DNA of 57,937 nt from Chloroflexia bacterium (GTDB lineage: Bacteria; Chloroflexota; Chloroflexia; Thermomicrobiales; CFX8), in the NCBI GenBank assembly GCA_030431755.1, contig JAUIIK010000015.1, positions 1 through 57,937 of the forward strand. The letters run 5' to 3'. The notes under the pieces are model-generated. The model was given only the letters and a program-made list of their open reading frames with translations. It searched no databases and was not told the DNA's origin. Positions 26,185 through 27,712 of this stretch are shown in pieces. The position numbers and the translations under genes are program-made. How positions within the stretch are numbered: position 1 is the stretch's first letter; every line of letters starts with the position of its first letter.

Positions 26185-26865
26185 TTACGGAACCTGCCAG
26201 AACTCCGACGTCAGCCCGAAGCGTTGGAACGTCGCGCGGACGCGGTCGGGCTTCAGGCCACGGAAGTCGGGGTCGAGCCGGTCCCGATACCATTCCTTGC
26301 CAAGCTCCCAGACGGTCATTAGCGGAACCGCTTCGCCGCGGTTGTTGCCCGTCTTGCCTGCCCAGGTCTCGATGTCCTCTTCCGACCGGAAGAGCAGCAT
26401 CGTCGCTCAGGTGTGGATCTGGTCGGCGTACCAATCCTTGAACGGCACCGAGAAGTTCACCAGGTAGTCGCGGTCCGGTTGCGGTTCACCGCCGACCACT
26501 GGAATGCCAACCGTCTTGCTGACGACCTCAAGTTTGGCGCGGATCAAGGCATCGGTCCCGAGCATTCCCGGAATGCCAAGCATGTCCCAGGCGCAGTTGG
26601 CGAAGTAGCGCTGCTGGCCCACCTCGACCGTGTACGCGGTTGGGATCGCCGAGAACGGGTTGAGGATGCGTATTCTATCGCCGCCCGGTTCGAGGAGAAG
26701 GGCGTGAGCATCGTGCAGCCGCCGGTAGGCCGCGCGGGCCTCGCGCTCCGAGATACCGAATTCGGTGGCGATGTCGGTGTATCGGGGCGCTCGGGCACGC
26801 TCGACGAAGAACTCGTAGACCCGCGTCCTTATCGCCCAATCATGGGTTGTTGGTTGGGTCGTCAT
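26185..26865 (-). CDS. MerB-like (alkylmercury lyase family) protein with in-frame TGA, candidate selenoprotein
   Basis: Read through one TGA (26407-26409) this is a 226-residue protein of the alkylmercury lyase family. Residues 1-60 form a winged-helix-like N-terminal domain (YTDIATEFGISEREARAAYR). The catalytic core has Cys91 and Asp94 in FANCAWDMLGIPGMLG, matching Cys96 and Asp99 of E. coli MerB. The TGA is residue 153, in DQIHT-U-ATMLLFRSEED, and aligns without gaps from the downstream FRS/FAS block with catalytic Cys159 of MerB (FCCHVHFFAS). The frame continues unbroken to FGLTSEFWQVP with family-like sequence. A hairpin fitting a bacterial SECIS starts 12 nt after the TGA. ATG 26865 follows GAGAGG; the frame is open upstream to 26919. 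It lies 10 bases after the hydrolase gene. Alternatives: nonsense-mutated pseudogene or sequencing error. Mercury as substrate is not established for such distant homologues. Confidence 0.78.
26377..26394 (-). promoter_or_regulatory. Candidate bacterial SECIS hairpin
   Basis: In the transcript the 5' arm CUCUUCC (26394-26388), loop GGUC (26387-26384) and 3' arm GGAAGAG (26383-26377) make a perfect 7-bp stem. The loop begins 19 nt after the TGA. Bacterial SECIS elements are a stem-loop directly after the UGA with guanines (GGU in E. coli fdhF) in a small apical loop, which binds SelB. The form and distance fit; function is inferred. Confidence 0.65.
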
Positions 26866-26875
26866 CTTGAGCCTC

Positions 26876-27712
26876 TCAGATCGTTTGTCGCTGTCGGTCG
26901 ATATGCCGGGCAAGCACACCGGGGCGGTCGATTGGCACGAAGTGATTGCTATTGCGGAGGACGACCAACCGTGCCTGCGGCATCAGCTTAAGTATGTCGT
27001 GAGCGCGGTCGATGCGAAAGGTCGGATCGCGTCCGCCCCATATGATCGATGCCGGACCAGCGTATGCCGTGAGCGCTGCACACCATCGCGCAACTGCCTG
27101 TTCGTCCACTGCATCGGACCGGAAGAGTCGCAGGAGCGTTGCCGAGAACTCGCGCTCGAACGGGCGCCAGAAGGCATCCAGAAGCTCCGGCGTCAGCCGC
27201 CGCTGGCAAGCGACATAGGGCCTGAATGCAAGCCGCAGCATCCACCGCCGGGCACAGAAGAACGCCGCCTCGCCGATCCACGGAAGCGCGATCAGCCGGA
27301 GCGGATTGAGGCCCGAGCCAGACCAATCAGCCAGTCGCAGGCTCGTGTTCGTCAGGACCAGCCCGGATACCCGTTGCGGCGCAAGGCTCAGGATCTCGCA
27401 CGCCACGAGCGCGCCGTAGTCATGGCCAACAAGCTGAAACCGGCAGACATTGCAATCATCGAGGAATGCCAGCGAGTCCCGCGCCTGCTGCCGGGGCGAG
27501 AGGTCTGACACCGGCGGCGCAGGCTCCGAGCCAAAACCGGTGAGGTCGGGCGCGATGGACCGGACTCGCGATCCAAGCCGCTCGACTGTCGCGTGCCAGA
27601 GATAGTGATTCGTCGGGATGCCGTGGAGCATGACAACCGTCACTGGACCGCCGCCAGTGTCGACATACTGGCGGCGGCGTCCGGCGACTTCGGCGACGTG
27701 GGGCTCGAGCAA
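26876..27712 (-). CDS. Alpha/beta-hydrolase with aspartate nucleophile (haloalkane dehalogenase/epoxide hydrolase type)
   Basis: A 278-residue alpha/beta-hydrolase. The oxyanion motif HGIP is at 30-33. The nucleophile elbow reads VGHDYGA, so Asp98 replaces the Ser of esterases, as in haloalkane dehalogenases and epoxide hydrolases. The acid is probably in WGGRDPTF and the base is the His in NSNHFVPID. It starts at TTG 27712, six bases after the slipin stop, and is followed after 10 bases by the MerB-like gene. The context suggests a pair acting on organic compounds with a carbon-heteroatom bond; that is inference. Confidence 0.85.
   Translation of the reverse strand: MLEPHVAEVAGRRRQYVDTGGGPVTVVMLHGIPTNHYLWHATVERLGSRVRSIAPDLTGFGSEPAPPVSDLSPRQQARDSLAFLDDCNVCRFQLVGHDYGALVACEILSLAPQRVSGLVLTNTSLRLADWSGSGLNPLRLIALPWIGEAAFFCARRWMLRLAFRPYVACQRRLTPELLDAFWRPFEREFSATLLRLFRSDAVDEQAVARWCAALTAYAGPASIIWGGRDPTFRIDRAHDILKLMPQARLVVLRNSNHFVPIDRPGVLARHIDRQRQTI

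Follow-up and report, generated by a model that had tools for sequence, protein, structure and literature searches.

Does an in-frame TGA in a MerB-like gene of a Chloroflexia bacterium mark a broken gene, or does it encode selenocysteine (Sec) in the active site of an organometal lyase? The gene lies in the 57,937-nt stretch of contig JAUIIK010000015.1 that was analyzed here as a whole (the window), and an earlier note had proposed that the TGA specifies Sec at the position of a catalytic cysteine. The catalytic residues of E. coli MerB are Cys96, Asp99 and Cys159, and the textbook methylmercury-cleaving enzyme uses sulfur; the affinity of mercury for selenium is central to mercury toxicology and geochemistry.

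Translation with the TGA read through yields a 226-residue product in which this codon is the only TGA, at residue 153, followed by ATMLLFRSEED. The Pfam match to MerB (PF03243) runs across it, from residue 71 to residue 193 (2.5e-25; 89.3 bits against a gathering score of 27), confirming a single MerB-family frame interrupted at this codon alone (Table 1). When the family profile was aligned to solved MerB, Cys91 matched Cys96, Asp94 matched Asp99 and residue 153 matched the cysteine kept in 3f2g; since 3f2g is a C160S mutant, that cysteine is Cys159. The catalytic correspondences claimed in the earlier note are thus borne out, as is the 62-residue gap between Cys91 and residue 153. Across 58 aligned homologues the Cys91 position is invariably Cys or Sec, and the Asp94 position is conserved at no less than 90%. 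A structural model computed with AlphaFold2 from the family alignment (pLDDT 97) retrieved only MerB among PDB matches with E < 0.001, with moderate global superposition on the crystal structures (TM 0.56-0.69). In the alignment the predicted Sec stands where MerB has Cys159, and Cys91 and Asp94 stand where it has Cys96 and Asp99; the gene almost certainly encodes an intact MerB relative with Sec instead of one of the two cysteines that bind the metal.

Table 1. Features of the MerB-like locus, in window coordinates
Feature	Position	Strand	Details
Putative Sec-containing MerB-like CDS	26185..26865	-	226 aa plus TAA stop; ATG start
Predicted UGA selenocysteine codon	26407..26409	-	residue 153, equivalent to MerB Cys159
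Cys91 codon	26593..26595	-	equivalent to catalytic MerB Cys96
Asp94 codon	26584..26586	-	equivalent to catalytic MerB Asp99
Candidate SECIS hairpin	26377..26394	-	CUCUUCC-GGUC-GGAAGAG; 7 bp stem; GGUC loop 26384-26387
AGAGG upstream of MerB-like ATG	26872-26876	-	
Alpha/beta hydrolase (Abhydrolase_1)	26876..27712	-	upstream, co-directional; ends 10 nt before MerB-like ATG

The claim that the TGA is no random nonsense hit is upheld by its recurrence. All 34 close homologues first fetched (the window gene not counted) carry TGA at the codon for residue 153; they come from Chloroflexota, Actinomycetota and one Gemmatimonadaceae genome (Gemmatimonadota), and most share a motif around the Sec of approximately T-U-[AS]-T-M-x-LF[RQ]SEE. 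Searches of relatives and of named genomes returned one TGA per homologue. A wider survey, in which the MerB family was sought in 400 Chloroflexota genomes and, using the family alignment, in 396 Actinomycetota genomes, raised the number of distinct proteins with UGA at the Cys159 site to 76, from at least three phyla. Five members of the clade have Cys instead: L111, L161 and L162, from Chloroflexota and Actinomycetota, in which the motif reads TC, and L146 and L147, which lie on plasmids of proteobacteria. Sec and Cys are the only residues seen at the position in the intact members among the homologues surveyed. The UGA clade stands apart, with an SH-aLRT of 100, in a tree built from 91 proteins of the MerB superfamily, and the five Cys members fall inside it, spread over two sub-branches. 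Downstream of the UGA and the SECIS hairpin the median pN/pS is 0.26 over 244 pairs; the codons beyond both elements are under purifying selection, and relatives retain the reading frame there.

Some plasmid-borne copies depart from this picture. Those of Sphingomonas panacis (L146) and Paraburkholderia (L147) have a Cys at the Asp99 position, within PCLWC and PCMWC, respectively. The RefSeq merB on plasmid 1 of Rubrobacter radiotolerans (L148; NZ_CP007515.1, 3932-4423) terminates at the family's UGA, and its remainder runs on in a different frame; this copy seems to be damaged or misassembled.

The signal expected for Sec insertion lies just 3′ of the codon. The published bSECIS model specifies an apical loop of 3-9 nt with a G within its first two positions, a stem of 4-16 bp, a distance of 16-37 nt from the UGA and an MFE of -7.5 or lower (PMC13188914). 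The hairpin in the window agrees with this model: it starts 12 nt after the UGA, its GGUC loop starts 19 nt after it, its stem has 7 bp, and the fold energy is -18.0 kcal/mol. Over 56 sequences, pairing in the stem reaches 92.3%, versus 49-67% in slid versions, three stem pairs show changes on both sides, and in the most distant group UUCC-GGUC-GGAA has become UUCU-GGUC-AGAA, a compensatory change. The Ser codon forming the loop is TCG in 55 of 58 Sec genes and TCA in the other 3, versus TCG at 122 of 592 Ser codons (21%) elsewhere in these genes, and the Arg codon of the hairpin is CGG in 40/40 cases versus 21% elsewhere. The Cys homologue L111 has no hairpin. A synonymous-recoding test of the hairpin in individual genes gave p-values of about 0.02-0.45, so that the evidence for the hairpin, weak one gene at a time, draws its strength from the whole set of genes.

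Selenocysteine decoding also requires dedicated machinery, and the earlier note had named its components as a check. All are present in the genome of the window: tRNA-Sec (anticodon UCA, 78 bits), SelB (318 bits), SelA (506 bits) and SelD (363 bits; L119, G000:C13:10733-11668). SelD, an enzyme unrelated to the MerB-like protein, is itself a UGA selenoprotein, with the codon likewise at an active-site Cys position (STAGUASK), and provides an internal control for Sec decoding in this genome. SelB was detected at E 1e-60 or better in 25 of the 28 Chloroflexota genomes carrying UGA forms; the exceptions are two metagenome-assembled genomes 72-75% complete and G302, which is 98% complete and has tRNA-Sec. 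It was also found in the genomes of L041, L042 and L044 (two Actinomycetota, one Gemmatimonadota). The presence of SelB alone is not discriminating, since most Chloroflexota genomes with a Cys-containing MerB also encode it; the four MerB-bearing genomes with neither SelB nor tRNA-Sec (G346, G081, G143 and G100), however, have UGA-free frames.

These results bear on two readings that deny Sec at codon 153. A nonsense mutation or decaying pseudogene would account for an in-frame stop, and the Rubrobacter plasmid merB, annotated to end at this UGA and with further frame damage, provides an example in its favor; against it stand the same-codon UGA in 76 distinct proteins of at least three phyla, the purifying selection after the UGA, the conserved hairpin and a complete Sec machinery. 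We consider this reading vanishingly improbable for the window gene and refuted for the family, and sequencing error is rejected with it on the basis of conservation, selection and the internal controls. Decoding of the UGA as another amino acid, whether by general reassignment or plain readthrough, is something that an open frame alone cannot distinguish from Sec insertion, but Pfam-supported neighboring genes terminate in TGA (an ordinary stop for 4 of the 11 ORFs neighboring the MerB-like gene in the window), the second in-frame UGA found in the genome is the known Sec/Cys site of SelD, and the position holds Cys whenever it is not UGA. This reading is hardly more probable than the former, and code reassignment is rejected on the same three grounds. 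The Sec reading advanced in the earlier note, supported by the machinery, by homologues restricted to TGA or Cys and by the retained downstream frame, leaves us close to certain that Sec is inserted at this codon. To that note the present analysis adds the SECIS hairpin, the fact that a MerB-like family with Sec, SaoL, had been recorded before, and relatives with two predicted Sec residues.

Comparison with known systems indicates how far the protein can be assigned. It resembles MerB (PF03243; NF009710/NF033555; PDB 1s6l, 3f2f, 5c17) in fold, overall length, N-terminal helical domain and the Cys96/Asp99/Cys159 positions, and differs from it in the Sec at Cys159, in the motif (TU, with no second Cys after the Sec, where MerB has FCC), in a conserved C-terminal extension of ~25 residues ending in FW and in the absence of a mer operon. 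It falls far short of both MerB equivalog cut-offs (32.4 of 193 bits for NF009710 and 26.3 of 200 bits for NF033555). Sec within the MerB superfamily is not new: SaoL (NF040728), the MerB-like organometallic lyase of the SAO system, is a selenoprotein with the motif CU (PMC13188914), and a Sec-containing MerB-like family had earlier been entered as 'Alkylmercury lyase MerB-like protein' (PMC9312934). The window protein shares with SaoL a Sec and membership in the superfamily, but has TU in place of CU, and a Cys before the Sec is absent from the relatives inspected. Membership in SaoL was rejected given this motif and a score far below the cut-off (27.8 of 140 bits), and none of the 400 Chloroflexota genomes contains a protein above that cut-off. 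Across the 58 aligned members, NCBIfam matches comprised MerB twice (NF009710, NF033555) and SaoL once, with no others. Literature searches for selenocysteine MerB returned SaoL entries only (the 2023 SaoL paper lay outside their scope), and neither the GOS nor the ISME selenoproteome paper, nor deep-Sep, mentions MerB in its main text. Judging by scores and motif, the clade would therefore represent a distinct variant within a family in which Sec is already known.

What the enzyme acts upon is less readily read from its surroundings. No merA, merR, arsenic or other metal genes lie beside it in the window, and 94 neighbors of homologues show no recurrent family of metal genes; a mer operon context, sought in both settings, was not found. 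The pairing with the upstream hydrolase gene is not conserved elsewhere. In many Anaerolineales the Sec-MerB gene sits directly 3′ of an HMG-CoA reductase gene, an arrangement checked with Pfam in L020.

By homology, the window protein would be a carbon-metal lyase in which Sec153 takes the part of the Cys159 thiol. Following the established bacterial pathway, SelB and Sec-tRNA would bind the hairpin just 3′ of codon 153, and Sec would be inserted at the UGA in place of termination. If MerB chemistry applies, an organometal, most probably an organomercurial, would then have its metal held between the thiolate of Cys91 and the selenolate of Sec153, and Asp94 would protonate the carbon before the metal leaves; Sec may be advantageous in being ionized at neutral pH and in having a higher affinity for soft metals. 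The protein would probably act as a chromosomal house-keeping detoxifier or scavenger and not as part of a mercury resistance operon. Since mer and other metal genes are missing from the neighborhood, the substrate, organomercury or another organometal, can only be inferred, and we lean but slightly towards organomercury as the main one. The protein might instead be a true selenoprotein of other function, acting on a different organometal or soft-metal compound (organo-tin, -lead, -arsenic or similar) or serving as a selenol-based metal binder. The lack of adjacent mer genes, the score of 32.4 bits against the MerB equivalog cut-off of 193 and the naming of SaoL's system for organometal, not mercury, chemistry (PMC13188914) are consistent with such a function, while the retained positions of the Cys/Asp/Cys triad and the closest solved structures, all of them MerB, argue against it; we regard it as a possible but distinctly less probable account. 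A selenoprotein of MerB fold, working as an organometal lyase through Sec153, Cys91 and Asp94, is the best explanation of the evidence as a whole, and in our assessment a likely one.

Some MerB homologues carry UGA in place of each catalytic Cys, 96 as well as 159. They make up two distinct groups in the tree: L104, L106-L108 and L168-L170 nest within the clade, adjoining the single-Sec L103, and L105, L109 and L110 fall outside it. One genome (G196) encodes three such paralogues. In these double-UGA genes the first UGA, too, is followed by candidate hairpins, with the loop CGUGC in L104, L105 and L109. A further single-Sec protein (L101; G126, around 1929-1976) lies outside the main clade, among ordinary MerB-like proteins, and in its motif LUCKIYYFAS the pair UGA-Cys (UC) is the counterpart of FCC in MerB. 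Sec probably arose in the active site of MerB on several occasions, with both metal-attacking cysteines replaced in two branches. The literature searched yielded no description of a double-Sec MerB state, which constitutes the most novel part of the finding.

If this is correct, the double-Sec forms would be organometal lyases gripping the metal between two selenols. The widespread Sec form and its natural Cys counterparts make the benefit of Sec to a metal-attacking enzyme directly testable, and any MerB survey that ends its reading frames at UGA overlooks or cuts short a large set of candidate organometal lyases from bacteria of soil and groundwater.
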